The translations under genes were made by a program, and so were the position numbers. Of a stretch of DNA of 44,037 nucleotides, positions 3,563 through 40,811 are shown piece by piece (positions within the stretch are counted from its first letter, which is position 1; each line of letters starts with the position of its first letter). The notes beneath the pieces were generated by a model. The model ran no database searches. It was not told the origin of the DNA and saw only the letters and a list, made by a program, of their open reading frames with translations. The stretch lies in contig DIEQ01000011.1 of assembly GCA_002418705.1 (NCBI GenBank), positions 1 to 44,037 of the forward strand, in the 5' to 3' direction. The DNA comes from Mageeibacillus sp. UBA5770. Lineage in GTDB: Bacteria > Bacillota_A > Clostridia > Saccharofermentanales > Saccharofermentanaceae.

Positions 3563-3593
3563 TGTTCACAAATAATGCAAGGAGGGAAGCTGC

Positions 3594-6677: not shown

Positions 6678-6691
6678 TTATCAGATGGATG

Positions 6692-6739
6692 AAGGGGCAG
6701 AGAAATCGACGCTCAGCGCCAGCTCTGCCCCTTTTATCT
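6692..6739 (+). terminator. intrinsic terminator/attenuator between binding-protein and permease genes
   Basis: An 11-bp perfect stem (AAGGGGCAGAG at 6692-6702, CTCTGCCCCTT at 6723-6733) is followed by TTATCTTC. A smaller inner hairpin, CGCTCAGCG, is nested in the loop. Because the next gene follows on the same strand with no obvious new promoter, it probably works as a partial terminator that lowers permease expression or stabilises the upstream message. Confidence 0.75.
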
Positions 6740-6776
6740 TCAAAAATAGTTATGTCATGATGAAAGGAGAGCCGAT

Positions 6777-7745: not shown

Positions 7746-7766
7746 AATGGAGAGGTGTAGTGAAAA

Positions 7767-8636: not shown

Positions 8637-8667
8637 ACCGACGGACACTATTCATAAAGGAGAAAAA

Positions 8668-9924: not shown

Positions 9925-9939
9925 CCGGGGGGGAGAATT

Positions 9940-11334: not shown

Positions 11335-11338
11335 GAAT

Positions 11339-14007: not shown

Positions 14008-14071
14008 ATACCGGTATCGCACCCGAATTATCCCGCCCGGCAAATCTAACAAGGAATAGATAGGAGAAATT

Positions 14072-15193
14072 ATGATTATCGGATGTGTAAAAGAAATTAA
14101 GTCCCATGAGTACAGAGTGGGGGTAACCCCGGACAATGTTGGCGAGTATGTCCGCCATGGACATACATTCCTTGTCGAGACCGGTGCCGGAACAGGTGCA
14201 GGTTTTTCGGACGGGCAGTATAAGATTCAAGGCGCTAAGATCCTCGATAACAAGGAGGCTGTCTGGAGCGGTTCGGACATGATCATCAAGGTCAAAGAAC
14301 CGCTGCCTGAAGAATACCCGCTGATGAGGGAAGGGCAGATCCTCTATACATACCTCCATCTGGCCGCCAACCGCAAACTTACGGACGCCCTTCTGGAAAG
14401 TAAAACAATCGGCGTTGCCTATGAAACCATAGAAAAGAACCACGGACTTCCATGCCTTAAGCCGATGAGTGAAATTGCCGGCCGTCTATCCATTCAGGAA
14501 GGCGCGAAATATCTGGAGAAACCTTTCGGAGGACGCGGAGTACTGCTCGGCGGCGTTCCCGGAACCAGACAGGGGAAAGTTGTCATTCTCGGTGCAGGTA
14601 TTGTCGGAATGAATGCTCTGAAAGTGGCAGTCGGAATGGGTGCCAATGTAACTATTATGGACATTGACTTAGATAAGCTGACTTTTCTTGATGATTTGTA
14701 CGGAAATATGATTCAGACACTCTATTCGACCCCGGACAACATATCAGGCGAACTGGCAGCTGCCGACCTGGTTATCGGTGCGATCCTGATTCCCGGTGAT
14801 GCCACACCGAAGCTGGTTTCGAAGAACCATTTGAAAACAATGAAACCCGGCGCCGTGATGGTTGATGTCGCAATTGACCAGGGCGGATGTTTTGAGACCT
14901 CGGTTGTTACCTATCATGAAAAACCTGTATACCTGGTTGACGGTATCCTGCACTACTGCGTCGGAAATATGCCGGGAGCCGTGCCGGTCACATCAACTCT
15001 GGCACTTACGAACACAACGCTCAAGTACGGTCTTGCACTGGCTGACAAAGGCCTGGCGGGGGCAATTGCCAAATATCCTGAGCTATCATCCGGCGTCAAC
15101 ACATATTTCGGGTCATGTACCAACAGCAAGGTCGCGTCCTGCTTTGGATTCACAGTCCATTCTGTTGAGGAACTGTCCTCATCCTGTTCATAA
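14072..15193 (+). CDS. ald: alanine dehydrogenase
   Basis: A 373-residue protein, the normal length for alanine dehydrogenase (NAD-dependent L-alanine to pyruvate plus ammonia). The N-terminus IIGCVKEIKSHEYRVG, the KVKEP segment with the substrate lysine, LHLAA with the catalytic histidine, the nucleotide-binding GAGIVGMNALKVAVGMGA and VMVDVAIDQGG with the conserved aspartate are all present. RBS GGAGAA. Its place in the middle of a sugar island, two genes after an aminotransferase, suggests regeneration of pyruvate from alanine (or of alanine as amino donor) for that enzyme, with release of ammonia and NADH. Confidence 0.94.
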   Translation: MIIGCVKEIKSHEYRVGVTPDNVGEYVRHGHTFLVETGAGTGAGFSDGQYKIQGAKILDNKEAVWSGSDMIIKVKEPLPEEYPLMREGQILYTYLHLAANRKLTDALLESKTIGVAYETIEKNHGLPCLKPMSEIAGRLSIQEGAKYLEKPFGGRGVLLGGVPGTRQGKVVILGAGIVGMNALKVAVGMGANVTIMDIDLDKLTFLDDLYGNMIQTLYSTPDNISGELAAADLVIGAILIPGDATPKLVSKNHLKTMKPGAVMVDVAIDQGGCFETSVVTYHEKPVYLVDGILHYCVGNMPGAVPVTSTLALTNTTLKYGLALADKGLAGAIAKYPELSSGVNTYFGSCTNSKVASCFGFTVHSVEELSSSCS

Positions 15194-15217
15194 TAAGTGT
15201 TTCCCGGAGGGTAAGTA

Positions 15218-16681
15218 ATGAATGTCTTGGGAATTGACATAGGAACAACAGGCTGCAAGGCAATCCTGGTTGATGCAGACGGAACCGTTTTAAGCAGGGG
15301 ATATGCAGGTTATGGTTACACCTCTTATGGGGACGGCCGTGTCGAACAGGATCCTGAGGATTGGTATACAGCCCTCGTTTCAGCAACGCTGCAGGCAGTT
15401 AAGGGCTATGACGCCGTAAACATTACAGCGCTTGCCCTTTCTACCCAGGGTGGGAGTTCCTGTCTGCTGTCACATCAGGAATCTGCTATGACACCGGCCA
15501 TAACATGGATGGATTCAAGGGCCGCAAATGAAGCTGGAGAGCTCGATATACTGCTTGGCAGGGATTACGTATACAAAACGACCGGCTGGAGTGCCGATGC
15601 CGGACTGGATATGGCCAAAACACGATGGCTCAATAAAAACGAACCAGAATTGCTTGCTCAGGCGAAGTATTTTATATCTACAATCGAATATATTCAGCTT
15701 CGTCTGACAGGTGTCATGAGCATTGATCCGACAAATGCAGCCATGCGTCAGATGATGAACATTCATACACTGAAATGGGATGCCGCAATACTGGACTCCA
15801 TTTCGCTTGATCAGGACAAACTGCCGCTCATTATGCCTGTCGGGACATTCCTGGGGCCACTCACGAGCCGCGCTGCGGCAGATCTTGGACTCAGGCCTGA
15901 CACATCCGTTTATCAGGGGGCGCATGACCAGTACTGCGGATCTTTGGGTGCGACGGCTTTTCATCCGGGTGACCTGATGATTTCTACTGGAACGGCGTGG
16001 GCTATCCTGGCGACCGTTGATCATGCTGTATCAACTACAACCTATATATCTCCGGGTCCGCACGTTCTGCAGGGTGTATACGGCGCAATGGCAACAATAC
16101 CGACAGGCGGTGCAGCTCTCGACTGGCTCAAGTCCAATTCAGGTGACTTAAGTTATGCAGATATCGATGCACATGCATTCAACTCCCGGGAAAGAACGGC
16201 AAACTTGTTATTTTATCCATACCTGAACGGTGCCGGCTATCCAATATGGCAGAATAAATGCAAGTCATCTTTTATTGGAATGGAGCTCCACCACACTGCA
16301 GCTGATCTGGCCGTTTCATGTATGGAAGGAATAGCTTTTCAAGTGCGGTACATGATTGAGGACTTTGAAAAAAACAATATTCCCATCCTGCGCCTTAAGG
16401 TCATCGGAGGAGCTGCAAACAGTGCCGCTTGGCTGGCCATACTGGAAGCCGTCATAAGAAAACCTTTGTCTGTCGTTGATGTAAAAGATGCTCCGTGTAT
16501 CGGAGCCGCAGCCATCGCAGGTGTGGGATGCGGGATGTTTGCCGATTATGACCAGGCACTCAGTCTTATGGCACATCTGACAGAATACCCGAAGGCTGAA
16601 ACCGCAGTTTATGAATATTATGAAAAAAAATATTTAAAATTCGTTCGAGGCATGCATGCCCTGCTGAGCCTGGAGGAATAG
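15218..16681 (+). CDS. FGGY-family carbohydrate kinase (xylulokinase-like)
   Basis: A 487-residue kinase with the FGGY N-terminal ATPase motif LGIDIGTTGCKA, the DPEDWY and TPAITWMDSRA segments, GAHDQYCGSLGA where the catalytic aspartate is expected, and the C-terminal IGGAANSAAWLAI adenosine-binding loop. FGGY kinases phosphorylate ketoses, polyols or related sugars with ATP. Together with the isomerase-like protein at 9940 it makes a plausible isomerise-then-phosphorylate pair. The sugar specificity cannot be read from sequence. RBS CGGAGGG upstream of the ATG. Confidence 0.92.
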   Translation: MNVLGIDIGTTGCKAILVDADGTVLSRGYAGYGYTSYGDGRVEQDPEDWYTALVSATLQAVKGYDAVNITALALSTQGGSSCLLSHQESAMTPAITWMDSRAANEAGELDILLGRDYVYKTTGWSADAGLDMAKTRWLNKNEPELLAQAKYFISTIEYIQLRLTGVMSIDPTNAAMRQMMNIHTLKWDAAILDSISLDQDKLPLIMPVGTFLGPLTSRAAADLGLRPDTSVYQGAHDQYCGSLGATAFHPGDLMISTGTAWAILATVDHAVSTTTYISPGPHVLQGVYGAMATIPTGGAALDWLKSNSGDLSYADIDAHAFNSRERTANLLFYPYLNGAGYPIWQNKCKSSFIGMELHHTAADLAVSCMEGIAFQVRYMIEDFEKNNIPILRLKVIGGAANSAAWLAILEAVIRKPLSVVDVKDAPCIGAAAIAGVGCGMFADYDQALSLMAHLTEYPKAETAVYEYYEKKYLKFVRGMHALLSLEE

Positions 16682-21376: not shown

Positions 21377-23002
21377 TTACTTCATTAAAAGCTCAACATC
21401 TGCATCAGCTGTTCCGATTCCTGCAATGCCGAAATTCTCGATAAGAACTTTGGCAACATTCGGTGAAAGGAATGCAGGGAGAGTCGGGCCAAGATGAATG
21501 TTCTTGACACCGAGCGAGAGAAGGGCGAGAAGGACGATGACTGCCTTCTGCTCATACCAGGCGATGTTGTATGCGATTGGAAGATCATTAATGTCATTGA
21601 GATCGAATATTTCCTTGAGCTTGAGTGCAATTACAGCAAGTGAATACGAATCATTGCACTGGCCGGCATCAAGTACGCGCGGGATACCGCCGATATTGCC
21701 GAGATCAAGCTTGTTATAGCGGTACTTAGCGCATCCGGCTGTAAGTATGATGGTATCCTTCGGCAGCTTTTCCGCGAAATCCGTATAGTATTCGCGGGAC
21801 TTCATGCGCCCGTCGCATCCGGCCATAACAAAGAACTTTTTGACGGCTCCTGACTTGACGGCATCGACGACTTTATTTGCAAGTGCAAAAACCTGGTCGT
21901 GGGCAAAGCCTCCGATAATACTTCCGGTCTCTATTTCCGTCGGCGGCGGGAGCTTCTTTGCCATCTCGATAATTGCGGAAAAATCCTTTTTGCCGTCTGT
22001 ATCTGCGAGAATGTGGGTGCACCCCGGATAACCTGCCGATCCGGTCGTGAAAAGCCGGTTGAGAACGGATTCACTCTTCGGCGGCACAATGCAGTTGGTT
22101 GTAAACAGGATCGGTCCGTTGAAAGACTCGAATTCCGTTATCTGCTTCCACCAGGAATTTCCGTAGTTTCCAGCTAAATGCTCATATTTCTTGAAAGCGG
22201 GGTAATAATTGGCAGGAAGCATCTCGCTGTGTGTATATACATCGACTCCGGTTCCTTCGGTCTGTTCGAGAAGCTGTTCCATGTCTCTTAAATCATGTCC
22301 TGAAATCAGTATGGCAGGATTGCCGCGGACGCCGATGCTTACCTCGGAAATTTCCGGATTGCCATATTTTTCAGTGTTAGCCTCGTCGAGAAGAGCCATG
22401 GCTACTACACCGAGTTCTCCGGTTCGTATTGTCAGTGCGACCAGATCATCTACGGTCAATTTGTCGTTCAGGGTTGCTGCCAGAGCCTCATAGATGAAGT
22501 CATAAATGACACTGTCTTCGAAGCCAAGGTTGTGGGCGTGCTCTGTATAAGCGGCCATACCTTTGAGACCATAGATGATAAGCTCCCTCAGGGAACGGAT
22601 ATCTTCGTTTACTGTTGACAGCACCCCGACAGAAGCTGCTTTAGCAAGCATTTCTTCTTTCGTTACGACTTTAAATGTGGCTGCGTCGCTGAGTTCCAGT
22701 GAGACTTTGGAGGCTAGTTCGTCGCGAACGATGATCATTGCACGGATCTGCTCTTCAAAGACCATTTCGTCAAAATTTGCATTGGTGATCGTCATAAACA
22801 GACTGCTGGTCACTTCGTGATTGACGGGTCCGATTTCTTTTGTGTCCAGACCGGCTTTTTTAACAATCTCAGCTATACCTTTTAACGTGTAAATCAGAAG
22901 ATCCTGCAGTTTTGCAACATCTTCATTCTTGCCGCATACACCTTTGACTTCACATCCGATGCCTTTGGCTGCTTCCTGACACTGATAACAGAACATGCTC
23001 AT
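21377..23002 (-). CDS. hcp: hydroxylamine reductase / hybrid cluster protein, class I
   Basis: A 541-residue protein using the ATG at 23002, which follows GGGAGGTAATT. The N-terminal cysteines (MFCYQC, then GC and VC: C-x2-C-x8-C-x5-C) give the [4Fe-4S] pattern of class I Hcp from anaerobes. Hybrid 4Fe-2S-2O cluster ligands are visible in SGHDLRD, TNCIVPP, GYPGC and AGCAKYRYN. Hcp reduces nitric oxide and/or hydroxylamine and protects against nitrosative stress. It is the last gene of a three-gene minus-strand run behind a membrane ferredoxin and a small cupin, and the divergent control region carries an HcpR/FNR-like palindrome. Confidence 0.96.
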
Positions 23003-23097
23003 GGTAATTACCTCCCTGGTTTCTGACGATTCGTACTCGCCTTTCATTGGAAAAATATACCGCTAAACAGTAATAACAGCAGACTTTAAGTGCGGCA

Positions 23098-28533: not shown

Positions 28534-29004
28534 TTAACTGCTAAATCCAAGGATAGAATCGATTTTTTCCGCAGCAGCATTTTCAATGGTTTTCTCAGAA
28601 TCATCAGATTCCATCTCACTTGCGGCAAGCCTGCCGATTTCATCTGAGAGGTCGAGAATATAGGAACGTGTCGGTGTTTCACTGATTTCAATCCGTGCTA
28701 AGATCCAGCCATTGTTGCTTAGGATGTCTCCGAGCGAGTTTTTGAAGAATTCACATAAATTCTCAAGCGTCGGATTGGTTACCGTAAAGGGCTTGATTTT
28801 GTTTATGTCCGCGTCCTGGAATTTTAAGAGGTATCGTTCAACCGTTTTTTCGATATAGTCAAACTGGACAAAGTCATTACTGACCTTTATCGTATCAAGA
28901 GAAATCTCCCAGGTATGCGGGTGATTCTGCCCGAGGACACCGCGCAGATAGATCGCATGGTTCGCATTAATGTAGAACTTGAATTTATAGTGGCTGTATT
29001 TCAT
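28534..29004 (-). CDS. stand-alone 6-pyruvoyl-tetrahydropterin-synthase-like protein of the XrtG locus
   Basis: A 156-residue protein whose first 110 residues follow the PTPS/QueD fold: FKFYINANHAIYLRG with H16, HPHTWEI with H28 and H30 (the zinc triad), FVQFDYIEKTV, and PTLENLCEFF followed by ARIEISETPTRS, the substrate-site glutamate region. The cysteine normally four residues before the HxH pair is leucine, so ordinary PTPS or QueD catalysis is doubtful. A short acidic/Ala-rich tail follows. It is the last gene of the operon, overlapping the preceding gene by ATGA. Such PTPS-related proteins are known markers of exosortase G loci; their role there is unknown. Confidence 0.85.
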   Translation of the reverse strand: MKYSHYKFKFYINANHAIYLRGVLGQNHPHTWEISLDTIKVSNDFVQFDYIEKTVERYLLKFQDADINKIKPFTVTNPTLENLCEFFKNSLGDILSNNGWILARIEISETPTRSYILDLSDEIGRLAASEMESDDSEKTIENAAAEKIDSILGFSS

Positions 29005-30197
29005 TGAATTACACCGGCCTTTCCAACTATTTCATTCAGGGAAGACCAGGCTTCCACTAAAGCTGCATCAAATGTACTGGTTTCGCTTCTATATGAGGAA
29101 CCTGCCGTGACTATCGCGTCAGGATAAAGCGCCTTAAGTTCGTTTAACAGCTTTTTTTGGTGCTGCAGTGTCAGTCTGTTCGTCGTATCCAATGAAATCA
29201 CTGCAAATACATTCACCCTGATCCGTGCGCATATATCTTTCGCGGTACCGTGTTTTTTGAGAGAATCGGCTGTTTCCATAATGAGCTGATTCGCGAACGC
29301 ATAGCCCTTATCGGATTTTAGTTTTGCAAGATTGTCTATCCGGATAAAAATAATCCCGATTTTTTCTGCGTTTCTTTCGGATAACTTTGCTGTTACCGCA
29401 TCAAAAAATTTCCTGTTATAAAGTCCTGTGAAAGCGTCATTACTCTTGTTGGCGTCGTCTGAATATGCGTCGGAAAGCCTTTTCTCCTGCTCCTGGACAT
29501 GGATGTTCTTATCTTTTAGTTCATCTTGAAGTTTATGGATTTTCAAGGTTTTTCGGTAATTAACCGAAGCAAAGTATGATGTGAGTGCCGCCAGTACAAG
29601 GCAGAGAAGTAAAGTCATCGTCCGGAGAATGAATATTCTTTCGCCGATTTTTGCCGTCGAAAACATATAGCTCTGAAGGACACTTGTTCCGATGCAGAAT
29701 CTTTCTCCTCCGATTTCAATAAAAACGGCGCTGATTATCTCGCTGCCCAAGGCGCTGTCTTTTGTTACGACTGCCGAAAAATCTTCTCCGAGATTAATCA
29801 GCTCAACGAGCTTCCTTGCCCCGCTTCCGCCGTTTCGGATATAGTAATCCTCAAGGTCGCTGTAACTCATAGAGGCTACCTTAGCCGTGACGGCTGCATC
29901 ACGTTCAAAAACAACAGCGTCTGAAGAAAGCAAAAACCAGTATCTTGTTCCTGAAGGCGGTGCAGCTTCTATTATTTCTGCTGCTTCGCTCTCATCGGCA
30001 GCTTCCTCAGCAATTCGATCCGCCATTGAGTGAACAATATATTCATTGTCCTTAACAATTCCTTCTATATATCCTTTCCTGAGCTGATCTGTCTGAGCCG
30101 TCAGGAATATCCAGATCAGGATGCCAATAACCAACATTACTGCCGTGATGAGAAAAACGACTGCTAAACCTTTGCCCGCTTTGCCGGTTCTTTTCAT
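29001..30197 (-). CDS. membrane protein with degenerate GGDEF domain, XrtG locus
   Basis: A 398-residue protein: one N-terminal membrane segment (about residues 10-32), an extracytoplasmic sensor-like region (35-185), a second membrane segment (about 190-212), a coiled region (KLQDELKDKNIHVQEQEKRL) and a C-terminal GGDEF-fold domain (DAFTGLYNRKFFD onward). Where the catalytic GG(D/E)EF loop should be the sequence reads RIRVNVFAVI, so c-di-GMP synthesis is not expected; it may be a signalling or scaffolding relic. It ends with an ATGA overlap with the PTPS-like gene and starts 13 bases after the glycosyltransferase. Confidence 0.83.
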   Translation of the reverse strand: MKRTGKAGKGLAVVFLITAVMLVIGILIWIFLTAQTDQLRKGYIEGIVKDNEYIVHSMADRIAEEAADESEAAEIIEAAPPSGTRYWFLLSSDAVVFERDAAVTAKVASMSYSDLEDYYIRNGGSGARKLVELINLGEDFSAVVTKDSALGSEIISAVFIEIGGERFCIGTSVLQSYMFSTAKIGERIFILRTMTLLLCLVLAALTSYFASVNYRKTLKIHKLQDELKDKNIHVQEQEKRLSDAYSDDANKSNDAFTGLYNRKFFDAVTAKLSERNAEKIGIIFIRIDNLAKLKSDKGYAFANQLIMETADSLKKHGTAKDICARIRVNVFAVISLDTTNRLTLQHQKKLLNELKALYPDAIVTAGSSYRSETSTFDAALVEAWSSLNEIVGKAGVIQ

Positions 30198-30210
30198 GTT
30201 AATCCCCTTG

Positions 30211-31584
30211 TTATTCTATTTCGTCATTAAACATTTTGTGAAGTCTGTGCCGGATGCCTGCAAATCGAATGAAATCATCTTGTATGGTTGCGGTAAACCG
30301 CTTTTTCTCTTCGCTGAAATTACTGGATTTCCAGCCGCTCCTGTTTTCAATGCTGTTGATGATTCCTGCGAAGCGTATCCAGAAGATGAAAAAATTATAT
30401 ATGGGCATAAGCGGCAGTATATACCATTTGCGGGCATAATAACGCCTCAGGTCGCGGTGTTCTTTTAAATATGAAATAATATTCAGATAATAGAGAAAAC
30501 CTGAAACAGCATATAGAAAATAGAGCAGGATCATGGACCCGACAATCAGTTCAACAGGATAATTGAAGAAAGAGAGACAGATGAGCGCAAAGTACCAGAT
30601 CATGCGCGGGAAAGCAAATGTATGGTCATATGTCAGCAGCCTGACCATGAAATCCGAAAAAAAGCCGCGTGTTTTAAGACTGTTCTGTAAAAACATGTGA
30701 GACACTTCCAGCTCGCCTGTCTGCCATCTCTGACGCTGAGTATAAAGCTTGTCAATCCCCTCTATGGGGTCGACAAAAAAGAATGCATTCTCGCAAAGAT
30801 GTATACTCTTTTTCATCAGCCTCCGCACCTGGAAGGTTACATGTGTGTCTTCACAGACTGTATCCGTATTGTAGAGCTGCGTTTTCAGGATCGTGGATTT
30901 GCGGAAAGCGGAGAATGCGCCGGAAAGTGTATAGATGCTGTCTAGTTCGGACTCGAAATTCCTGCCGGCCAGAAAAGCCTGGGCATACTCATAAAACTCA
31001 CACCTGCGAAAGAGGCGCAGAAGCGAATGATCTGTATCCTCGATCATTTTAGGATCCGTGAGCACGACTCCTGTCAGGCTGTGGATATGGGGGCTTGACT
31101 CAAAGCGCTCTACAATGTTCTTGATCGCCTTCGGTTCCAGTTTGCCGTCACTGTCAATATGGACGATATATTTGCCTTCACTGTTAAAAAGCGAAAGATT
31201 GAGCGCTTTTGATTTTCCCTGGCGGGCTTTAAGCCACTGCATGGAGAGCTCGGGAAATTTAATCTGACATCTGCAGAAGACGTCAAAGCTTTTATCCGTG
31301 CTCTGATTGTCAACAAGTATGATGCTGATAAGATCAGGCGGATATTCTGAGGCATACACGGATTCCAGGCAGCCTTCCAGCGTGCTTTCCGAGTTGTATA
31401 CAGGAATGATCAGAGTAATTTCAGGGTACCGCAGCGGCGAAACGCTCTTTTTTGTAATCAGGCGTTTTTTGACGAGCAGAAAGAAGCCGCCGACAGCCGG
31501 TATTATTTCCATGAACAGCGGGATAATGATCCACGCCATCCAGAAGATCATTTTTTCAAATATTTCCCGCAGCAGTATTTCCAT
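30211..31584 (-). CDS. family 2 glycosyltransferase, XrtG-associated
   Basis: A 457-residue membrane glycosyltransferase. An N-terminal membrane anchor (about 12-37) precedes the GT2 catalytic domain: ITLIIPVYNSESTLEGCL, ILVDNQSTDKS, the DxD motif in IVHIDSDGKLEP, EDTHVTFQVRR, and QRQRWQTGELE, the Q/RxxRW motif of processive enzymes. Several C-terminal membrane segments follow. This is the arrangement of the glycosyltransferase that accompanies exosortase G. It may glycosylate the sorted protein or build the carrier to which it is attached; that is inference. It overlaps the end of xrtG by 29 bases. Confidence 0.9.
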   Translation of the reverse strand: MEILLREIFEKMIFWMAWIIIPLFMEIIPAVGGFFLLVKKRLITKKSVSPLRYPEITLIIPVYNSESTLEGCLESVYASEYPPDLISIILVDNQSTDKSFDVFCRCQIKFPELSMQWLKARQGKSKALNLSLFNSEGKYIVHIDSDGKLEPKAIKNIVERFESSPHIHSLTGVVLTDPKMIEDTDHSLLRLFRRCEFYEYAQAFLAGRNFESELDSIYTLSGAFSAFRKSTILKTQLYNTDTVCEDTHVTFQVRRLMKKSIHLCENAFFFVDPIEGIDKLYTQRQRWQTGELEVSHMFLQNSLKTRGFFSDFMVRLLTYDHTFAFPRMIWYFALICLSFFNYPVELIVGSMILLYFLYAVSGFLYYLNIISYLKEHRDLRRYYARKWYILPLMPIYNFFIFWIRFAGIINSIENRSGWKSSNFSEEKKRFTATIQDDFIRFAGIRHRLHKMFNDEIE

Positions 31585-32161
31585 AACTGAATTTCCCTAC
31601 CTTCTGTTTGATGATCTGGGAGCGTGTGAAAACATAAAAATACAGGATTATCGAAAGCCCGTAAAAAATGATTCTTCCGAATATGGCATGCGCAAAAAAG
31701 AAGATATTATTACCGAAGATGTAAACGAGCATACAGATGACTGTCAGCCTGATTATGTTCGAAGCGAATATCCACATGATTCCTGCAATGTTCAGTACGA
31801 TTTTTTCGACAGAATTATATATCGGGAAAAACCAGAGGAGAGCGGAGAAGGCCATAAGTTCAATGACACCTGAGCACTCATAATCGATATAGAGTGAAAT
31901 GGAATCCATCCCGTGCTCGATGAAGATAAGAGAATACTGATAATACGAGTAGAACATTCCGGTAAGGTCTCCGATAAGCCCGGTCGAGGCCGCAACGGCT
32001 TTAGCCAGCGGTATGGTGACATAGGGCTGTATCGTTATCATCATAAAGATGAACATTCCGACACTTCCGGCAAGAAACTTGAAGAAAGCAAGCTTCGCAC
32101 GGCTTAATACCGTTAGGAGATATACCCATATGATTAAGCTGATAATAAGGAGAGCTGTCAT
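31556..32161 (-). CDS. xrtG: exosortase XrtG
   Basis: A 201-residue polytopic membrane protein with the exosortase/archaeosortase catalytic set in order: C96 in DYECSGVIEL, R138 in SNIIRLTVI and H158 in FFAHAIFGR, each next to hydrophobic helices. Exosortases are transpeptidase-like enzymes that recognise a C-terminal tripartite tail and cleave it during surface processing. Length, motifs and neighbours match exosortase G, the Firmicutes type. Its ATG overlaps the stop of the Firmicu-CTERM protein gene (ATGA), so enzyme and likely substrate are translationally coupled. AAAAGGA precedes the start. Confidence 0.92.
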   Translation of the reverse strand: MTALLIISLIIWVYLLTVLSRAKLAFFKFLAGSVGMFIFMMITIQPYVTIPLAKAVAASTGLIGDLTGMFYSYYQYSLIFIEHGMDSISLYIDYECSGVIELMAFSALLWFFPIYNSVEKIVLNIAGIMWIFASNIIRLTVICMLVYIFGNNIFFFAHAIFGRIIFYGLSIILYFYVFTRSQIIKQKVGKFSYGNTAAGNI

Positions 32162-32835
32162 GCTTTATGTTTCCTTTTCACTAAAAAATAACTGATGCCT
32201 GCGATTACAAGGCCGGAACCTGCAACGACAAACGGAAGGGTAGGTGTTCCTACGGCGACCAGTGTCTGCTTTCCGAGGTTAGAACAATAAAAGGAAATCG
32301 ACTTTATTGTCTGTGGGCTCGTTGAAAAAAACGAAAGGGGGATCTTCAGTTCCCACTCATCCGGATAACTGGAGCTGCGAGTAACAACACCGGCCGCACC
32401 TGTTATGATTCCGTAACCGTTCTGATTTCTAATAACAAGCGGCGTATTGCCGTCAGTAATAGAGGTGCCGTCCGGAGGGACTGCGAGAACGTAATTTTCA
32501 ACACCGTCTACGGTAAAGAGATAATCGTTACCGTTGAACTGTGCAAAATCATCCGGATAAATCGAAATATGCAGGTAGACGTAGTCTTCATCCCTGAAAA
32601 GGGCCGCCAAGTGATACTTATTTTCCTGTCCCCATCCCTGGGATATTTTTGAATGAGGTTTGTCGGCCCAGTCATCGTAACTGCCGTCAATTGTTATGCC
32701 GACATAGTCTGAAGCCGTGCCATCCGCTTCATACACGACCCCGTCTCCTGACCCCGCAAAAACGGGAAAGGAAGAAAGCATCAACACTCCAATTGTGAAC
32801 AGACACCCTAAGACTTTGGCATACATCTTCATCAT
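32158..32835 (-). CDS. secreted protein with Firmicu-CTERM-like sorting tail (putative XrtG substrate)
   Basis: A 225-residue protein from the ATG at 32835 after AAAGGATGG. It has a classical signal peptide (cleavage probably after PVFA near residue 27), a beta-rich extracellular domain starting ITIDGSYDDWADKPHS that resembles the CBM9/DOMON-like fold, and a C-terminal tail. The tail has GTPTLPF, a hydrophobic helix (VVAGSGLVIAGISYFLV) and the basic end KRKHKA, the motif-helix-basic pattern expected for exosortase targets. It sits directly before xrtG. It is the only protein in this window with such a tail. What the domain binds is unknown. Confidence 0.9.
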   Translation of the reverse strand: MMKMYAKVLGCLFTIGVLMLSSFPVFAGSGDGVVYEADGTASDYVGITIDGSYDDWADKPHSKISQGWGQENKYHLAALFRDEDYVYLHISIYPDDFAQFNGNDYLFTVDGVENYVLAVPPDGTSITDGNTPLVIRNQNGYGIITGAAGVVTRSSSYPDEWELKIPLSFFSTSPQTIKSISFYCSNLGKQTLVAVGTPTLPFVVAGSGLVIAGISYFLVKRKHKA

Positions 32836-32869
32836 TTTTTTCCATCCTTTCCGGTTCAAAAGAGATCGA

Positions 32870-35800
32870 TTACATTTTTTTGTTCTTTGCGATTTTGTGT
32901 CCCGGCCTTCTGAAAAGCAGATAGACCAAAACCGCTTCAAGGCATATTCCTGATAAGGATATTATGAGTCCGCCTGCCAGGTGAGGATATTCCATAGTAA
33001 TAACCGTCGTACCTTTATCGACGATGAGAAAGTTATTCATCGAACGGATATTCTGGTCACTTTTGAAAATGTCCTGATAGGCCAGGGTGGTATTGACATT
33101 GTCATGTTCGGATTTTATCACGATTTTGTTTATTTCATAGCTTATTTCGACGGGAACGATCGTACGAGAGGGAAGAGTGTCCTCATCAAGCTCCATAATT
33201 GAATTTAAAATGGATTTGACTTCGGCGTCTTCAGCAGTATATGCGTGAAAAAGAAGATTAAAGCCGAGGAATGTGATGTTTTTTGTTTCGCCGGTACCGA
33301 CAAAATTCAGCCTGGTTTCTTCGAGCCATGCGTAGCCGTCTGATTCACTTAGCCCGTTAAGGTATACCGTATTCCAATTTTCATAACCTGTAAAAAAATC
33401 TTTCGCAGATATGGTTGATGTATCTGTGATCAGATCGGGATAGCTGTTATACAGTGTGATGGGCTGGGCAGAAATATCGAGGAAAGTCATCCGGTTCGTA
33501 AGGGGGTCCGATGGAATTCTGCTCATGTCGATGAAAATTTCAACGCCGGATTCTGCTATTTCTCTGACAAGTTTTTCTGCCTCCGCTTTGTCATTGTAAA
33601 AGAATCCCGAAAGGTAAATTTTGTCATATCCTTTCAGCTCATCGACTGTGTACTCATCGATATTCTGCTTGTCGCCGGGATGATAGTACGGAAGGATACC
33701 GGGCACCAGGGCGGCTGTTGTACCAATTGCCAGGCCGCTGTACTGCGAAATAAGCCCGAAAGTTGATTCGACGGGAAGAGAGAACATCATAGTCCGATCT
33801 GTTTCGGCAGTAACTGTATAGCCGACACGAGCTGCTGCTGCCAGCAGATCCTTGCGGTCGCTGTCTTCAATATGGACCTTGTCAAGAATTACCGTATCCG
33901 CGCCTAGCTCGAGATTACGGTCGAACATATACAGATAGTTCTTTTTTTCAAGTGATTCATTCAGGTATGCAATATTGCTGGCTGTTACAGCACCCTGCCA
34001 TGCCCAGCCGAAAACATACTGTGTTTTCGGTGCGAGAGTGCAAAATGCATACGAAGGCAGCGGGCCAAGTGTGCTTAAATCCATCAAAGATACTCTTTGC
34101 CTGGTGGATTCCTTTGCCTGTGTAAACAGGGTATCTGACATGGATTGTTCCATAGTTTGAATTGTTGCGGGCATATTCATTTTTTCATCGTAACTGCTTA
34201 AAAGAAAGGACGGAACCGAGTCTATCAGGATTGCCGCACAAAGCAAAGCCAGAATCGGCTTTTTTATATTCCGCCATTCAATAACGGCTATGGTAAACAT
34301 TGCATAGGCAATGGGTGCAAATCTCCTGACCCAAAACAGCTGGCTTAACGGAATCAGCTGAATCAGCGGAGTAAGCGCCGTCGTTGAGCCGGCAATAATA
34401 ATCAGCAGCGTCAAAAATCCCGGCAGACTCTTCTTGTTGGAAACGAAAATTCCGATAGCGGCAATAAGAGCCAGACTCAGGCCCCAATACAATTCCGTAA
34501 TATCCCCGGTGAAACGATGCATCGGATTCAACGAAACCGCGAGCTCTGTACTCCAGGCAGCCATAACGGCGGCAGTTGCATCTGAATCCATAGAAGCCAG
34601 GCCGCCGAGCAGTGAAGGGTACACCCAGATACCGGCAGCGGCAAACGAAAAAAGCATGGCGAAGATCGCAGTAACCGACTCCCTGAAGCGCTTGTTGGCG
34701 ATGGAATAAATGAGAAGGAATATGGCCGCTGCAACACCAACCATCGCGGAGATCATCAGGTGTCCCATAACAGATAAAATCATAAGCAGCATAAGGGGAA
34801 TAATCATCTTTTTTCGCCTGTAACACACAAACTGCCACAAAGCGTAAAGTATGAATGGGAGGAGCATGGTAATAAACATTCTCGGCATATTTCCTTCACC
34901 GAAGAAAACACGAAGGTTATCCGGAAAAATAAACCATGTCAGACCAAAGAAGGCTCCCAGAAAAGGCCTGCCGAGCTTTTTGCCGAACATCAGCCAGCCG
35001 GTTCCGCCAATGGTAAATGATGCCCATATGAATCCGAGATATGCCCCCATCACATTGCCGCCGCATAAAAACTGCATAAAAGCCATCAGGTAATAAGACA
35101 TAGGAGCCCAGTACCGGAACGGCTGAACACCGTTATACCAGTATTCCGTGTACAGAGGATAAAAATTTCCTTTCAGGATTTCGTGATACATCAGGTCGGC
35201 TTTGAACAGATGACCATGAATATCCAGGCCTAAAGGATATATTCCGGAGGCTTTAACAGCTTGCATGACGGCAAAGCCGGCAAATATCAATAATGCAAAT
35301 GAGAATAGAAATGACCTGATAGACGAGGGCTTATATAATTTGTCATAGGCTTTATCATCGTGTGACTGCAAAGCTAATGACTGGACGGAAGCGGTCGGCT
35401 CTATCTGATTGTCAACAGCATTTTCCCGAAAACCGTGACCGGGTCTCGAGGATTCTGCAGACGGCTGTGATTCAATCAGCTTGTTAATATAAGTGCTGAG
35501 CCGTACTTTTTCTTCGTCAGTAAAATCTTCATCACATACACTGAAGCTTCGCTGAGGGCTCTCACTTATTTCAAGCTTTGTCAGTGTATAGCCGGCAGCA
35601 CCGAGAATGCCGGCAAGTTCGGTGAAAAACACCTTGCCTATATTCTCAATAGTCGGTGAAATCGTATCGAAAGGCGCGGCCGTGTTTAACAATACTCCGG
35701 TATAGGGTTTCAAAAAATCGGATATAATATTCTCAGTGACATCATATGCTTCAAAACGGTCAAACGCAGGCTTCAAATAAAAAGCAAGCTCAAAAGTGTG

Positions 35801-35881
35801 GCTGTGAATACCTGCACCGGGTGATACATTTTTATGCGATGCATTTATTCTAAAAGTATATTTATAGCTTGCAACTCCCAC
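32870..35881 (-). CDS. PTPS-like domain fused to large polytopic membrane protein, XrtG locus
   Basis: A 1003-residue protein when started at the GTG at 35881, which follows GGAGG at 7 bases; longer starts give an unconvincing N-terminus. Residues 1 to about 135 form a second PTPS-like domain with zinc histidines H16 (RINASHKN), H26 and H28 (GIHSHTFEL), again without the catalytic cysteine. After a polar linker come about a dozen membrane segments of the 6-pyruvoyl-tetrahydropterin-synthase-related membrane family (YPLGLDIHGHLFKADLMYHE, GVQPFRYWAPMSYYLMAF), resembling GT-C glycosyltransferases. A large extracytoplasmic C-terminal region and a last membrane helix (about 970-990) follow. First gene of the operon. 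Possible lipid-linked sugar transferase. Confidence 0.85.
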   Translation of the reverse strand: MGVASYKYTFRINASHKNVSPGAGIHSHTFELAFYLKPAFDRFEAYDVTENIISDFLKPYTGVLLNTAAPFDTISPTIENIGKVFFTELAGILGAAGYTLTKLEISESPQRSFSVCDEDFTDEEKVRLSTYINKLIESQPSAESSRPGHGFRENAVDNQIEPTASVQSLALQSHDDKAYDKLYKPSSIRSFLFSFALLIFAGFAVMQAVKASGIYPLGLDIHGHLFKADLMYHEILKGNFYPLYTEYWYNGVQPFRYWAPMSYYLMAFMQFLCGGNVMGAYLGFIWASFTIGGTGWLMFGKKLGRPFLGAFFGLTWFIFPDNLRVFFGEGNMPRMFITMLLPFILYALWQFVCYRRKKMIIPLMLLMILSVMGHLMISAMVGVAAAIFLLIYSIANKRFRESVTAIFAMLFSFAAAGIWVYPSLLGGLASMDSDATAAVMAAWSTELAVSLNPMHRFTGDITELYWGLSLALIAAIGIFVSNKKSLPGFLTLLIIIAGSTTALTPLIQLIPLSQLFWVRRFAPIAYAMFTIAVIEWRNIKKPILALLCAAILIDSVPSFLLSSYDEKMNMPATIQTMEQSMSDTLFTQAKESTRQRVSLMDLSTLGPLPSYAFCTLAPKTQYVFGWAWQGAVTASNIAYLNESLEKKNYLYMFDRNLELGADTVILDKVHIEDSDRKDLLAAAARVGYTVTAETDRTMMFSLPVESTFGLISQYSGLAIGTTAALVPGILPYYHPGDKQNIDEYTVDELKGYDKIYLSGFFYNDKAEAEKLVREIAESGVEIFIDMSRIPSDPLTNRMTFLDISAQPITLYNSYPDLITDTSTISAKDFFTGYENWNTVYLNGLSESDGYAWLEETRLNFVGTGETKNITFLGFNLLFHAYTAEDAEVKSILNSIMELDEDTLPSRTIVPVEISYEINKIVIKSEHDNVNTTLAYQDIFKSDQNIRSMNNFLIVDKGTTVITMEYPHLAGGLIISLSGICLEAVLVYLLFRRPGHKIAKNKKM

Positions 35882-36312
35882 AGGTATGCCTCCAACTCGA
35901 AATCTGCAGAAATAATTTGAATTAGAAAAGTGAAAAATACACAAACATAGAATACAATTCGAATATCCCCTATTACATTGTATATGGTATTTTAAGTGAA
36001 AAGTCAACCAAACAAATCGGAATTGTGACTGATCATTATGCAGGGAAAGACTGATCGGCATACCCGAATAGCGTTGTCGGGACGAACAAAAGAAATAATG
36101 TACACAAAAATTGTAATATATTTATACATAAGAAGCCAAAATTGCCGGTGAATGTTAAGTGTCACAAAATCAGCAGAAAAATTTCCAAGTAAATTGTTAA
36201 AATTATTAATTATATGGAATACTTTTGCGGTTGCTTTTTTGTATGATTGTGTCATCAGATTAGAAAAAATGAAATCCAAGCAAAAACACATAATAAAGAA
36301 AAGAGGGTCACT
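35882..36312. other. AT-rich divergent intergenic region
   Basis: This 431-base gap separates the exosortase operon (minus) from the MtaA-like gene (plus). It is AT-rich and must hold both promoters. I found no convincing -35/-10 pair, no cobalamin-riboswitch core and no small gene with a ribosome binding site. Confidence 0.5.
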
Positions 36313-37677
36313 ATGTTAAATCCAAAAGAGCTTCTATTTGCTGCCTTGCGTCATGAAGAAATTGAATCATCCCCCTGGGTTCCTTTTGCCGGTGTGCATG
36401 CAGGCAAATTAACCGGCTCTGATGCAACCGAAGTACTTACCGACAAAAACAAACTTTTCGATGCATTAATGGAGGTTAATAAACTTTACAAGCCCAACGG
36501 GCAGCCCGTGGTCTTTGATCTTCAGATTGAAGCTGAGATACTGGGATGTGAACTGATGTGGGCTGCAGACGGCCCGCCTTCCGTAAAGACACATCCTCTG
36601 GCTGAAACAATGACGGTGCCCTGTCTTTGCACACTTCCTACAAAAGAAGACGGCCGTCTGCCGATGATTCTCGATACGATGAAGCGCATGAAAGAAGCCG
36701 TCGGCGACACAACAGCCCTCTATGGCCTTATCTGCGGACCCTTCACACTTGCGTCCCACCTTCGCGGCAACGACATTTTTATGGACATGTATGATGACGA
36801 GGATTACGTAAATAATCTTCTTGAATACTGCGCAGAATTCGGTAAAAAGCTTTCTGAGTATTATATTGAAGCAGGCATGGACGTCATTGCCATCGTTGAT
36901 CCCCTTGTATCGCAGATTTCACCCGCTCATTTTGAAGAGTTCTTAACAAAGCCATTTACTGATATGTTCGACTTTATCAGGGGCAAAGGTGCTTTTTCAT
37001 CCTTCTTTGTCTGCGGCGATGCTACCAAGAACATCGAAGTAATGTGCAAAACGAATCCGGACTCCATCTCCATCGATGAGAACGTCAACATTGTAGCAGC
37101 CAAGACCGTTACGGATCGTTTCAACATTGCTATCGGCGGCAATATTCCGCTTACATCTGTAATGCTGCATGGTACCCAGCAGGACAATATGAAATATGTT
37201 GTTGATATGATGGACAAAATCGGCAGTAAAAAGAACTTCATCGTTGCACCCGGCTGTGATATTCCATATGCTGTACCTGTTGAAAACAATATCGGTATTG
37301 CACAGGCCGTACACGAAACCGCAGCGGTTCGTGAAATGCTTAAAAATTACGTAGCTGTCCAGGAAGATATTCAGATTGACCTACCGGATTACGAGCACCT
37401 CACAAAGCCGCTCGTTGAAGTCTTTACTCTTGACTCAGCCACATGTGCCGCCTGCACTTACATGATGGGTGCTGCAGATGTAGCAAAAGAACATTTCGGA
37501 GAGACAATCGATGTTGTTGAGTACAAGTTTACACTTAAGGAAAATATTGCCCGCTGTGTGAAGATGGGTGTAACCAACCTGCCGAGTATTTATATCAACG
37601 GCAAGCTTAGATTCTCGTCGATCATTCCCCGCAGGGAAGAACTGCAGGGTGCCATCGAAGAATTACTGAATAAATAA
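36313..37677 (+). CDS. uroporphyrinogen decarboxylase/MtaA-like methyltransferase fused to thioredoxin-like domain
   Basis: A 454-residue protein from the ATG at 36313 after GAGGG. Residues 1 to about 345 follow the URO-D/MtaA/CmuA family (PKELLFAALRHEEI, WVPFAGVHAG, YGLICGPFTLASHLRG, IVDPLVSQISPAHFEEF). This group transfers methyl groups between corrinoid proteins and thiols. The usual HxC zinc motif is changed: C234 in FFVCGD lacks the histidine two before it, while C315 in APGCDIP is kept. Residues about 365-454 form a thioredoxin-like domain with C378-A-A-C381 and a cis-proline-like LPSIYINGK. Followed by a CobW-type GTPase, which supports a metal or corrinoid connection. Substrate unknown. 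Confidence 0.87.
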   Translation: MLNPKELLFAALRHEEIESSPWVPFAGVHAGKLTGSDATEVLTDKNKLFDALMEVNKLYKPNGQPVVFDLQIEAEILGCELMWAADGPPSVKTHPLAETMTVPCLCTLPTKEDGRLPMILDTMKRMKEAVGDTTALYGLICGPFTLASHLRGNDIFMDMYDDEDYVNNLLEYCAEFGKKLSEYYIEAGMDVIAIVDPLVSQISPAHFEEFLTKPFTDMFDFIRGKGAFSSFFVCGDATKNIEVMCKTNPDSISIDENVNIVAAKTVTDRFNIAIGGNIPLTSVMLHGTQQDNMKYVVDMMDKIGSKKNFIVAPGCDIPYAVPVENNIGIAQAVHETAAVREMLKNYVAVQEDIQIDLPDYEHLTKPLVEVFTLDSATCAACTYMMGAADVAKEHFGETIDVVEYKFTLKENIARCVKMGVTNLPSIYINGKLRFSSIIPRREELQGAIEELLNK

Positions 37678-37704
37678 CAAAGCAGCAGGAGAGGAGACAG
37701 CGTC

Positions 37705-38622
37705 ATGGTACAGTTATATCTGATCACAGGTTTTTTGGGTGCGGGAAAAACAACATTTCTCAAAAACCTGATCCGGATGCTGTCTTCTCAACGTTTGCGT
37801 GTCATCGTAAACGAGTTCGGCAAAGAGGGCATAGACGGGCAGCTCCTGAGTGAACTGGGGGTTGTACTCGATGAAATCAACAACGGATCCATTTTCTGCT
37901 CCTGCCGGCTGGACAAGTTTGAGGAAGTGCTGGAAACGGCCCTTCAAAGTCCGCCTGAGATCATTCTTGTTGAGGCGTCAGGACTTTCCGATCCGACGAA
38001 TATTCGTAAAATTCTATCGACGAACCCCAGGTTTTCCGGCATTGACTTTCGGGGCAGTATTTGTCTTGTCGATGCGATCAGCTTTCATAAAGTTTTTTAT
38101 ACAGCCCGTGTTTGTAAAAGACAGCTGAGTATCAGCGACATGGTCTTAATTAACAAGACAGACATAGTTTCCACTGAACAGACAAATGCAGTGGAACAGC
38201 AGATAATGGATCATTATCCAAATCTTGTGATACACCGCACCAGCTTCGGCGCTATCAAGCCAGAATGGCTTGCGCAGCTGAATTCACCTCCTCGTGAGGC
38301 GGACGAACTGATTCAGCCTCGGGATATTACTCTGCAAAAAGCCACAATCCATATCAGGGAAAGCATGAGTCTTTACCAACTGGAGCAATTTATCCGTATG
38401 TTCATTGAAGACACGTATAGGATAAAGGGTTTCGTGTGTCTCGACAACAAGACGTGGCTTGTGGACTGCGTTGGATCTCTTATAAATATCACACCTTATT
38501 CAGTAACGGACAAGAAAAAATGCAATAGAATCACCGCGCTTGCGGGTCAGGGTATGTCCCTCAAAAAGAGCATTGCCAAAGCTGTCATATGGTATCCCGA
38601 TTATATTACTGATGTAGAATAA
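37705..38622 (+). CDS. CobW/COG0523-family P-loop GTPase
   Basis: A 305-residue GTPase. The Walker A motif LITGFLGAGKTTFLKN, EFGKEGIDG, the metal-binding loop GSIFCSCR in place of the usual CxCC, the Walker B ILVEASGLSDP and the base-specific NKTD are present. The C-terminal CobW domain is shorter than in long members. COG0523 proteins insert metals or serve in cofactor-enzyme maturation. It lies 27 bases after the MtaA-like gene with GGAGAGG before the ATG, so it probably serves that protein, or a corrinoid or zinc protein acting with it. Its end is 8 bases from the convergent PocR gene. Confidence 0.92.
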   Translation: MVQLYLITGFLGAGKTTFLKNLIRMLSSQRLRVIVNEFGKEGIDGQLLSELGVVLDEINNGSIFCSCRLDKFEEVLETALQSPPEIILVEASGLSDPTNIRKILSTNPRFSGIDFRGSICLVDAISFHKVFYTARVCKRQLSISDMVLINKTDIVSTEQTNAVEQQIMDHYPNLVIHRTSFGAIKPEWLAQLNSPPREADELIQPRDITLQKATIHIRESMSLYQLEQFIRMFIEDTYRIKGFVCLDNKTWLVDCVGSLINITPYSVTDKKKCNRITALAGQGMSLKKSIAKAVIWYPDYITDVE

Positions 38623-38630
38623 GTCATCTG

Positions 38631-40661
38631 TCATTCCCATGAAAAACCTAAGACCTTTTCGACAAATATTCTGGCAATATCTGCATCGAACTGCGTATTT
38701 GCACACTTCATAATCTCTTCAACAGCTTCTTCGACGCTAAGGCCTTTTCTATAGGTTCGGTCACAGGTCATTGCATCATATGCGTCTGCAATACCGATTA
38801 TTCTTGATTTCAGAGAAATCTGTTCGCCTTTAAGACCTTTTGGATAACCTCCTCCGTCCCAGCGTTCATGATGGGAAAGAACATATTCCGCAATTTCTGA
38901 AAATTCATTTACCGAACTTAAAATACGATAACCTATTTCAGAATGCCTGCGGATTTCACTCCATTCAAGATCGGTCAGTTTTCCGGGTTTGTTAAGAATT
39001 TGTTCATCAATCCCAATTTTCCCGATATCGTGCATAAGACCTGCCAGCCGAATCTGATTGACATCGGACTTGTCAAAGTTCATCTTAACTGCAATAGCTT
39101 CACAAATTTCACTGACTCTTTTTGAATGCAGCATCTCCCGGTTATTTTTTTCATAAAGAGTATTCATAATCAGATCGATTGTTTTGCTTCGCATGCTCGA
39201 ACTTTCATAGAGCTTGTTCTTGTACATATTGTCTTCTGCTGTACGGAAGACGTCATTAATATCCTGATTTTGGGCTCTTTTAACGGCATAACCGATTGAA
39301 ATTGAAAGGATAATCTTATCTGCTTTTTCATTTGCAATGGCCTGGTTAATATTACTGATTCGTTTTTCTGCATCTTCCGAGCTGCACTCCGGAAGAATCA
39401 GCACAAATTCATCCCCGCCGATTCTTGCAGCTGTATCCCCGGGTCGGCACTGCGCGCTCAATATATTCGCGACTTTTACCAGAAGTATATCACCGGCACT
39501 GTGGCCGAAAGCATCATTTGTTAGTTTGAGGCCGTTGACGTCTACCATGACAAGTGTCAGCGGCAGTTGTCCGCTTATATCGTTACGAGATAGTTCTTCC
39601 TCGTAAAATCTTCGGTTTGCCAGACCTGTGAGTTGATCCCGGTAACTCAAAAAAAGGATCTCGGCCTCGGCCTTTTTTCTTTTTTCAATATTTCTGCTTA
39701 CACCGACAACTTCAATATCTCCCGCGGAACTGAACCTGTATCTTGTAGATACCTCGACCCAAATAACATTCCCGTTTTTACATGGCTGCTGAATCTCATT
39801 AACATGGAATCCGGGATTTTCAGGGTAACTAAGAAAATCCTGCAGACCTTTTTTGATGTGTTTTTTTACCACGTCAATCATCTCGGGAATAATGGCATCA
39901 TTCAAATTCTCATTTAATGCTTCTGCTACAGAGAGTCCCCTTAATTGTAAAATAGACGGACTGATATATGTGAACTTTTTCTTTGAAAGATTTAATACCC
40001 AGATGACATCAGACGCGTATTCCGTTATAAGACGGTACTTTTCCTCTGCGCTTATACGCTTTTGGATTTCCTCCATCTGTACTATATTTCTAATTGCCTG
40101 TGAAGACAGCATTTTTGCATTGAGGTACAAAAAGTTGCATATATTGGCAAATTGTTCTTTGGGCATTCTATATACTTTTTTTAACGCCTGTTCATAGGCA
40201 TCAAAATCCGCACCTATTTCCTGGCAATACTTCATCATTTCGGTGATATCTGCCTTCTCATCAAGAACTTGTCCAATGAGCCAATTCGCAACATGATGAT
40301 TGCCTACCATTATGCTGGTTCCGCCGTCAAGAAGTCCTCCGCTCAGGCACTTCTGCATTCGCGGTCCGTGAGGATCCGGACTTCCTAATACTGCATCTGA
40401 TTTCATACAGTTAGACAAACCCTTTTCAGTTTTTCTTATTATCTGATTACATAAACAGGAAAAACCGCTTGGTGTGGTTATCGGTGTTCCGTCAATCTCT
40501 GTGATAATAGATGCAACCCCGGTTGCTTCGGAGAATGCATTCTGAATTTTCTGGACCTCGGCAATGTCGAAAAGCTGATAAAAACTATATTTACCCGGCT
40601 CATTACCATTATTGTTTTTATTCGATTCAGCGGAAGAAGTTGATTCGTCAAAAATATCCAT
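38631..40661 (-). CDS. PocR-PAS-GGDEF-HD-GYP cyclic-di-GMP signalling protein
   Basis: A 676-residue cytoplasmic protein from the ATG at 40661 (AGGAG 11 bases upstream; a TTG 24 bases earlier is possible). Domains in order: PocR ligand-binding domain (about 20-205; TPSGFSCLCNQIIRK, CMKSD, GQVLD), PAS (about 210-335; YASDVIWVLNLSKKKFTYISP), GGDEF (about 340-495; intact RIGGDEFVL) and HD-GYP (about 500-676; intact LMHDIGKIGI and HHERWDGGGYPKGL). Both c-di-GMP synthesis and breakdown sites look functional. PocR domains are thought to sense small hydrocarbon or alcohol-type ligands. Its position beside a corrinoid-methyltransferase-like gene suggests that it senses that pathway's substrate. Confidence 0.93.
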   Translation of the reverse strand: MDIFDESTSSAESNKNNNGNEPGKYSFYQLFDIAEVQKIQNAFSEATGVASIITEIDGTPITTPSGFSCLCNQIIRKTEKGLSNCMKSDAVLGSPDPHGPRMQKCLSGGLLDGGTSIMVGNHHVANWLIGQVLDEKADITEMMKYCQEIGADFDAYEQALKKVYRMPKEQFANICNFLYLNAKMLSSQAIRNIVQMEEIQKRISAEEKYRLITEYASDVIWVLNLSKKKFTYISPSILQLRGLSVAEALNENLNDAIIPEMIDVVKKHIKKGLQDFLSYPENPGFHVNEIQQPCKNGNVIWVEVSTRYRFSSAGDIEVVGVSRNIEKRKKAEAEILFLSYRDQLTGLANRRFYEEELSRNDISGQLPLTLVMVDVNGLKLTNDAFGHSAGDILLVKVANILSAQCRPGDTAARIGGDEFVLILPECSSEDAEKRISNINQAIANEKADKIILSISIGYAVKRAQNQDINDVFRTAEDNMYKNKLYESSSMRSKTIDLIMNTLYEKNNREMLHSKRVSEICEAIAVKMNFDKSDVNQIRLAGLMHDIGKIGIDEQILNKPGKLTDLEWSEIRRHSEIGYRILSSVNEFSEIAEYVLSHHERWDGGGYPKGLKGEQISLKSRIIGIADAYDAMTCDRTYRKGLSVEEAVEEIMKCANTQFDADIARIFVEKVLGFSWE

Positions 40662-40811
40662 ATGTCTATTGACTCCTAACCGCAAGATTGGTTTATTATG
40701 CCATTTTTCAATACCTTAGTATTTTACACTGAAATATGTGGCGAAGGAATGTTTATTTTTTACAGTGTATGATGCGAAAAAATCCGGAAGAGATCGTATC
40801 GTCTTATAAGA

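Follow-up and report, generated by a model that had tools for sequence, protein, structure and literature searches.

Gene content of the XrtG locus and its relatives

The stretch of DNA analyzed here, 44,037 nucleotides from Mageeibacillus sp. UBA5770 (the window), carries on its minus strand a set of six genes at 28534-35881 that represents the exosortase G (XrtG)/Firmicu-CTERM system (Table 1). The initial annotation had described six coupled genes, which agrees with the open reading frames of the window: all six were present, ATGA overlaps were seen at 29001-29004 and 32158-32161, and the GT2 and XrtG genes had 29 bp in common. A mechanical list of open reading frames extended two of the genes further upstream, to 32940 and 36061. 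The starts at 32835 and 35881 were adopted because a GGA-rich site precedes the ATG of the former and GGAGG the GTG of the latter.

The profile check proposed with that annotation gave clear matches, as five of the six locus proteins scored far above the curated cut-offs of four NCBIfam families (TIGR03110, TIGR04145, TIGR03111 and, twice, TIGR03112). The Firmicu-CTERM protein reached 127 bits against TIGR04145 (cut-off 50). XrtG matched also the signature TIGR04178 (50.3 bits, cut-off 23) and remained under the cut-off of the PEP-CTERM exosortase (EpsH) family TIGR02602 (22.4 vs 105.55 bits). The sixth protein, encoded at 29001-30197, scored 36.9 bits with the NCBIfam GGDEF model (cut-off 37.4) and 50 bits with that of Pfam (cut-off 23.8). 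The locus is thus a well-supported ordinary member of an already catalogued XrtG system, and what is new here is the reading of its parts together with the natural fusions described below. The locus had been called complete, which holds for the six genes; some clostridial-type relatives have in addition an extra small GT2, and 11 of the 80 loci compared, in clostridial-type relatives, a GtrA-type gene, both missing from the window locus.

Table 1. Genes, domains and sites of the XrtG locus in the window.
Feature	Positions	Strand	Remarks
PTPS-fused GT-C membrane protein	32870..35881	minus	1003 residues from GTG at 35881
PTPS T-fold domain, copy A, residues 1-118	35528..35881	minus	TIGR03112 86.4 bits, cut-off 69.35; predicted structure
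Oligosaccharyltransferase-like GT-C domain, about residues 183-705	33767..35335	minus	predicted structure
Firmicu-CTERM protein, predicted XrtG substrate	32158..32835	minus	225 residues: signal peptide, CBM9-like domain (predicted), C-terminal sorting tail
Sorting motif GTPTLP, residues 196-201	32233..32250	minus	at least 90% of 44 selected members have G196 and T199
Sorting-tail membrane helix and basic KRKHKA end	32161..32232	minus	helix 200-224 in structure model
XrtG exosortase	31556..32161	minus	201 residues; TIGR03110 221.8 bits, cut-off 102.75
XrtG C96	31874-31876	minus	invariant in relatives
XrtG R138	31748-31750	minus	invariant in relatives
XrtG H158	31688-31690	minus	invariant in relatives
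Membrane GT2, XrtG-associated family	30211..31584	minus	TIGR03111 677 bits, cut-off 363.95
GT2 DxD motif	31147-31155	minus	kept in relatives
GT2 ED motif	30847-30852	minus	kept in relatives
GT2 QRQRW motif	30724-30738	minus	kept in relatives
Membrane sensor with degenerate GGDEF domain	29001..30197	minus	PF00990 50 bits
Degenerate GGDEF site reading RVNVF	29205..29219	minus	neither GGDEF motif nor RxxD site in the protein
Stand-alone PTPS-like protein, copy B	28534..29004	minus	TIGR03112 142.1 bits, cut-off 69.35

The relatives comprised the best 80 loci of 129 encoded relatives in a species-genome collection, 45 of them classed as Clostridia-type and 35 as Lactobacillales loci, with L055 (Oscillospiraceae) and L038 (recorded as Anaerolineaceae) placed in the Clostridia-type group. 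By a distance rule, the substrate gene adjoined XrtG in 69 loci, was fused to it in two, lay elsewhere on the stretch in eight (L057 being counted here only through an XrtG start set too early) and was at a contig end in one. The GT2 gene adjoined XrtG in 78 of the 80 loci, the exceptions being a fragment (L032) and a gene in pieces (L047). Coupling of the genes is therefore found in most relatives, and the window shares with them the order substrate-XrtG-GT2 as well as all four NCBIfam families.

The two groups of relatives differed in their accessory genes, although several of the 80 loci end early and the counts are to be read accordingly. Of the 45 Clostridia-type loci, 37 had a PF10131-type GT-C, 34 a downstream sensor of the window type and 35 a downstream PTPS, the corresponding numbers among the 35 Lactobacillales loci being 0, 0 and 26. 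Instead of the PF10131-PTPS fusion of the window, at least 29 of the 35 Lactobacillales loci have a TIGR03766-type membrane glycosyltransferase, and none of the 35 has the in-operon degenerate sensor. The TIGR03766-type cluster was present in 34 of the 80 loci, of which 30 are named (29 Lactobacillales and L055); the one example scored, from L057, reached 672 bits with the TIGR03766 model.

Co-occurrence was surveyed in draws sampled evenly within each group, which include genomes already known to carry the locus. In Lactobacillaceae, XrtG and TIGR03111 (E 1e-80 or better) were detected in the identical 37 of 201 genomes; one of these (G250) had stops in XrtG, and another (G267) had a TIGR03111 match below the cut-off, with stops. 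TIGR03766 (E 1e-110 or better) was found in 42 of the 201 genomes, 36 of them with XrtG; six had no XrtG, two of these with matches above the family cut-off, and one of the 37 XrtG genomes had no TIGR03766. The link between TIGR03766 and XrtG is not a strict one. Among 236 Clostridia genomes, XrtG was present in eight and Firmicu-CTERM in the same eight (one below the cut-off), while TIGR03111 was found in seven of them; in the remaining one, G536, the match to XrtG stops at base 2469 of its contig. In a thinner draw from the order of the Enterococcus locus, XrtG, TIGR03111 and TIGR03766 all exceeded their cut-offs in the same two of 148 genomes, including the starting genome. G213 and G247 had two matches to each of the three families, which indicates that the locus can occur twice. 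Cultured carriers include Clostridium ljungdahlii, Leuconostoc, Pediococcus and Lactiplantibacillus.

XrtG, its predicted dedicated substrate and their natural fusions

The Cys96/Arg138/His158 set, reported as intact in the initial annotation, was present in the window XrtG and identical in 80 of 80 XrtG sequences above 200 bits (80 of the 82 matches were used, the two pieces of the split L047 gene being excluded). A sequence search of solved structures with XrtG gave no meaningful match. One further protein, P0156, joins a piece of a GT-C to XrtG; it resembles a deletion or an assembly join and was not used.

The predicted substrate in the window showed all the marks of a Firmicu-CTERM protein, including the family score, the motif, the helix and the basic end. 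Its domain is suggested by prediction to have a CBM9-like beta-sandwich fold, the likeness to CBM9 (PF06452) consisting of the predicted fold and distant profile similarity. The Foldseek matches of the substrate model were weak, the best row being Epstein-Barr gp350 (E 0.0091), with CBM9 at E 0.073, and no row reached E 0.001 or better. Pfam CBM9 itself matched neither the window protein nor any of the 44 chosen members at E up to 1. The Pfam scan of the family produced weak, scattered matches; Gram_pos_anchor, found in seven of the 44 members, probably reflects the tail. A search of solved structures with the substrate sequence found no meaningful match.

That the enzyme has a dedicated substrate is supported in the relatives, as distinct from the genome of the window itself: Firmicu-CTERM matches were on the same-size contig as XrtG in 18 of 18 chosen genomes, with a second, broken copy in one of them. 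TIGR04145 would miss a sorting tail on an unrelated protein, and the organism of the window may have a second substrate. Two Firmicu-CTERM copies were found at loci L049, L066, L068 and L076 and extra pieces at L061, L062 and L069. P0152 of Anoxybacterium hadale is a fusion in which a PTPS domain precedes the Firmicu-CTERM protein; the signal-like helix thereby becomes internal, so that the PTPS domain would stay inside.

At two loci the substrate and XrtG are fused in one frame, L021:9299-10588 (429 amino acids) and L028:437-1753 (438 amino acids). In both the sorting motif (GTPTGP and GTSTGP, respectively) leads directly into a helix that replaces the first XrtG helix, and the catalytic residues are retained. 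The halves of the L021 fusion scored 204.4 and 75.7 bits, both above the family cut-offs. The two fusions, both from bins of similarly named samples, were identical at 329 of 426 aligned residues, with proportions of differences of 0.74 at silent (pS) and 0.14 at nonsynonymous sites (pN); at the fusion junction the values were 0.84 and 0.19. Silent sites near saturation together with the low pN fit an open frame under purifying selection, not a sequencing slip. When the L021 protein was used as a query (7999 candidates scored), its seven matches included one nearly identical copy, and none of them was another such fusion. The shared helix suggests that the tail of the substrate is oriented like the first helix of XrtG, with the motif outside. 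The natural fusion favors a single topology and could serve directly as a test protein in structural studies.

Predicted glycan-making parts and the probable product of the locus

The GT2 has a QxxRW motif of the sort usual in processive glycan synthases, and the processive-synthase motifs were found in 76 of 76 relatives above 500 bits (76 of 113 matches were used, the rest being below score or length limits). Its next-best family was PgaC/IcaA with 120 bits, under the cut-off of that family, and the search of solved structures found GT2-domain matches only, the best with 52 bits. In the large membrane protein a second PTPS copy is joined to PF10131 (581 bits, Pfam). By prediction this protein combines a PTPS T-fold with a GT-C that resembles oligosaccharyltransferases and has the GT-C fold and an acidic residue in the first outer loop; D220 was present in at least 90% of 35 sequences. 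The model of the GT-C domain aligned best with yeast STT3 (447 residues, 4.0 A), and PglB and AglB were among the top structural matches.

With a probability of roughly one half, the locus makes a cell-surface glycan through GT2 and GT-C, and a CBM9-like protein processed by XrtG binds or tethers this glycan. The computed basis consists of gene content, co-occurrence, conservation, predicted folds and natural fusions, from which we infer all the catalytic steps as well as what the product is. Judged by its motifs, the membrane GT2 would polymerize a beta-linked glycan and export it, and the GT-C, judged by its fold, would take a lipid-linked sugar outside the membrane and modify or transfer the glycan. 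The signal peptide would export the Firmicu-CTERM protein and the C-terminal helix retain it in the membrane, after which Cys96 of XrtG would cut at or near G-T-P-T and XrtG would join the resulting C-terminus to an acceptor that carries an amine, as expected from the family and from archaeosortase A. The anchored CBM9-like domain would then bind or tether the glycan. This explanation appears the most economical because it accounts together for the processive-type motifs of the GT2, the likeness of the GT-C to oligosaccharyltransferases and the CBM9-like nature of the substrate. Exosortase substrates elsewhere in bacteria stabilise surface exopolysaccharide (PMC12188702, in the passages available).

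The main rival, because of the likeness to STT3, is protein glycosylation. The glycan of the GT2, lipid-borne or direct, would then be moved by the GT-C onto the Firmicu-CTERM protein and the glycoprotein cut and anchored by XrtG, which we consider somewhat unlikely. That the modelled GT-C is structurally closest to oligosaccharyltransferases keeps this rival a serious one, and it is favored also by the dedication of the substrate in all 18 chosen genomes and by the S-layer glycoprotein that is the substrate of the Haloferax archaeosortase in the passages of PMC7157517. However, STT3, AftD, ArnT and AftA all score, so the fold leaves the acceptor unfixed; the window substrate has, judged by eye, no long Ser/Thr-rich linker, and the motif set of the GT2 is of the processive type. 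Of the initial annotation, the family assignment, the coupled genes and the Cys/Arg/His set stand, while its "processed and glycosylated" surface protein is rivalled by a glycan with an anchored binding protein. The latter is at least as likely because of the QxxRW GT2, the CBM-like substrate and the link between exosortases and exopolysaccharide elsewhere.

The near-perfect pairing of XrtG and GT2 would suit also a protein-polysaccharide conjugate, in which a covalent bond formed by XrtG connects the cut C-terminus of the substrate with the glycan that the same locus makes. Such a covalent link is raised as a possibility for cyanobacterial exosortase substrates in the passages of PMC12188702, but archaeosortase A attaches a lipid, by a detailed model that its authors call speculative (PMC7157517, in part), and we regard the conjugate as improbable. 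Simple release of the protein by XrtG, resulting in a secreted-lectin module without anchoring, seems very unlikely since the tightly linked glycan-making set would be left unexplained. Exosortase family enzymes are regarded as cysteine peptidases and no acceptor is known for XrtG, both of which favor release.

Regulatory-type parts and parallels in known systems

The membrane sensor had been annotated as a degenerate GGDEF protein, and the operonic copies agree with this: among 33 copies above 60 bits, the window included, neither the canonical GGDEF motif (0/33) nor RxxD (0/33) was found, with a gap at the GGDEF site in four copies and RxxD searched by a rough pattern. The other 15 matches of the sensor family, among which L024 (domain lost) and a 96-residue cut piece at L028 were counted as both fell under 60 bits, had the GGDEF motif in 10 and the RxxD pattern in three. 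A role of the 29001-30197 protein as diguanylate cyclase or as receptor of cyclic di-GMP (c-di-GMP) was consequently rejected for the canonical sites; a non-canonical c-di-GMP site may exist. A link to c-di-GMP at a distance may exist as well, because GGDEF proteins with intact motifs occur near some loci and in the window. At 38631-40685, about 2.7 kb from the locus, the window encodes a PocR-PAS-GGDEF-HD protein with an intact GGDEF motif and the RxxD pattern, a possible source or sink of c-di-GMP for the locus. The Enterococcus loci have an intact-GGEEF GGDEF protein between XrtG and the distant substrate gene (L044:14495-15763, L050:14496-15764).

The sensor-family protein was fused to PTPS at six loci (L018, L021, L024, L030, L033 and L036), with remnants of the GGDEF region still present in L036. 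The PTPS T-fold and the zinc-type histidines were both found, the latter being H16, H28 and H30 in copy B. All three histidines were conserved in 28 of 30 separate clostridial downstream PTPS, six of six sensor fusions and 26 of 26 Lactobacillales downstream copies, and in only 20 of 27 copies fused to GT-C (for the separate PTPS, 67 of 105 matches were used, the rest being below score or length limits). The pair may accordingly be read from its sequences as one working and one drifting copy. The catalytic Cys of PTPS/QueD enzymes, which we take to lie four residues before HxH, is replaced by Leu at residue 24 of copy B; the position varies in the relatives, and Cys was not among the five commonest residues in any relative group. 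A role as pterin enzyme was rejected for the PTPS copies, as they have no catalytic Cys, while the retained histidines and glutamates leave room for another PTPS reaction.

The dead-GGDEF sensor and the two PTPS-like copies would form a regulatory or scaffold module inside the cell and would act neither as cyclase nor as pterin enzyme. In a bolder and quite improbable version, XrtG would act as a transpeptidase that makes a conjugate of the CBM9-like protein and the glycan, the PTPS-like T-fold, formerly a pterin enzyme, would gate the process as output and scaffold domain of the membrane sensor, and the fusions would be single-turnover, self-processing forms.

Next to the XrtG locus, at 36247-38622, the window encodes a corrinoid-type pair, a methyltransferase of the MtaA/CmuA-like kind whose C-terminal part resembles thioredoxin, and then a CobW-like GTPase; all of these assignments stay under the NCBIfam cut-offs. 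A sugar-use cluster on the plus strand (1613-16681) includes a two-component regulator, ABC uptake parts, Gfo/Idh/MocA oxidoreductases, an L-arabinose-isomerase-like protein and an FGGY kinase, and a hybrid-cluster protein (hydroxylamine reductase, 835 bits) lies at 21377-23047. Rfam gave no match in the window at gathering scores. Promoter-like sites (28 vs 19.9 in shuffles) and terminator-like sites (15 vs 8.3) were in moderate excess and were not used.

Among the systems compared, the Listeria Pss operon is, by the passages of PMC4125290, the closest studied Gram-positive parallel, as it combines an IcaA-like GT2 and a degenerate GGDEF protein in one operon. It has also a BcsB-like gene, and its PssE binds c-di-GMP at the I-site, unlike the operonic sensors here, which had no I-site by pattern (0/33); those passages describe no exosortase. 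Another c-di-GMP-linked GT2 operon, in L. acidophilus, likewise has none in the passages of PMC6123363. PEP-CTERM/EpsH systems share with the window a signal peptide, motif, helix and basic tail and an exosortase beside glycan genes (PMC12188702, in part); the window system differs from them in having a dedicated substrate, in lacking an outer membrane (Gram-positive relatives) and in its TIGR02602 score below the cut-off. Archaeosortase A/PGF-CTERM has the same tripartite tail logic and a Cys-based model, but another motif and a lipid attachment; the new C-terminus is modelled to pass onto Cys and then to a lipid amine, a scheme called speculative by its authors (PMC7157517, passages).

The initial annotation knew of no established biochemistry for the system, which is in line with the one library of open-access papers that was searched (subscription papers and database pages lie outside this scope). 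There the system is named only as an expression result, its over-expression in L. plantarum, and as a line in a proteomics table, the exosortase-G-associated GT2 of L. brevis (PMC8951740). The same library did not mention the NCBIfam accessions of the system or CBM9 together with an exosortase, and PF10131 appeared only in work on another subject.

Exosortase G has so far been little more than a catalogue entry, and its parts now give a testable mechanism. They raise the question whether an exosortase with a dedicated substrate tethers a carbohydrate-binding protein to a glycan of its own making. As the system is present in cultured species, study of one protein could reveal which acceptor chemistry a bacterial exosortase uses.
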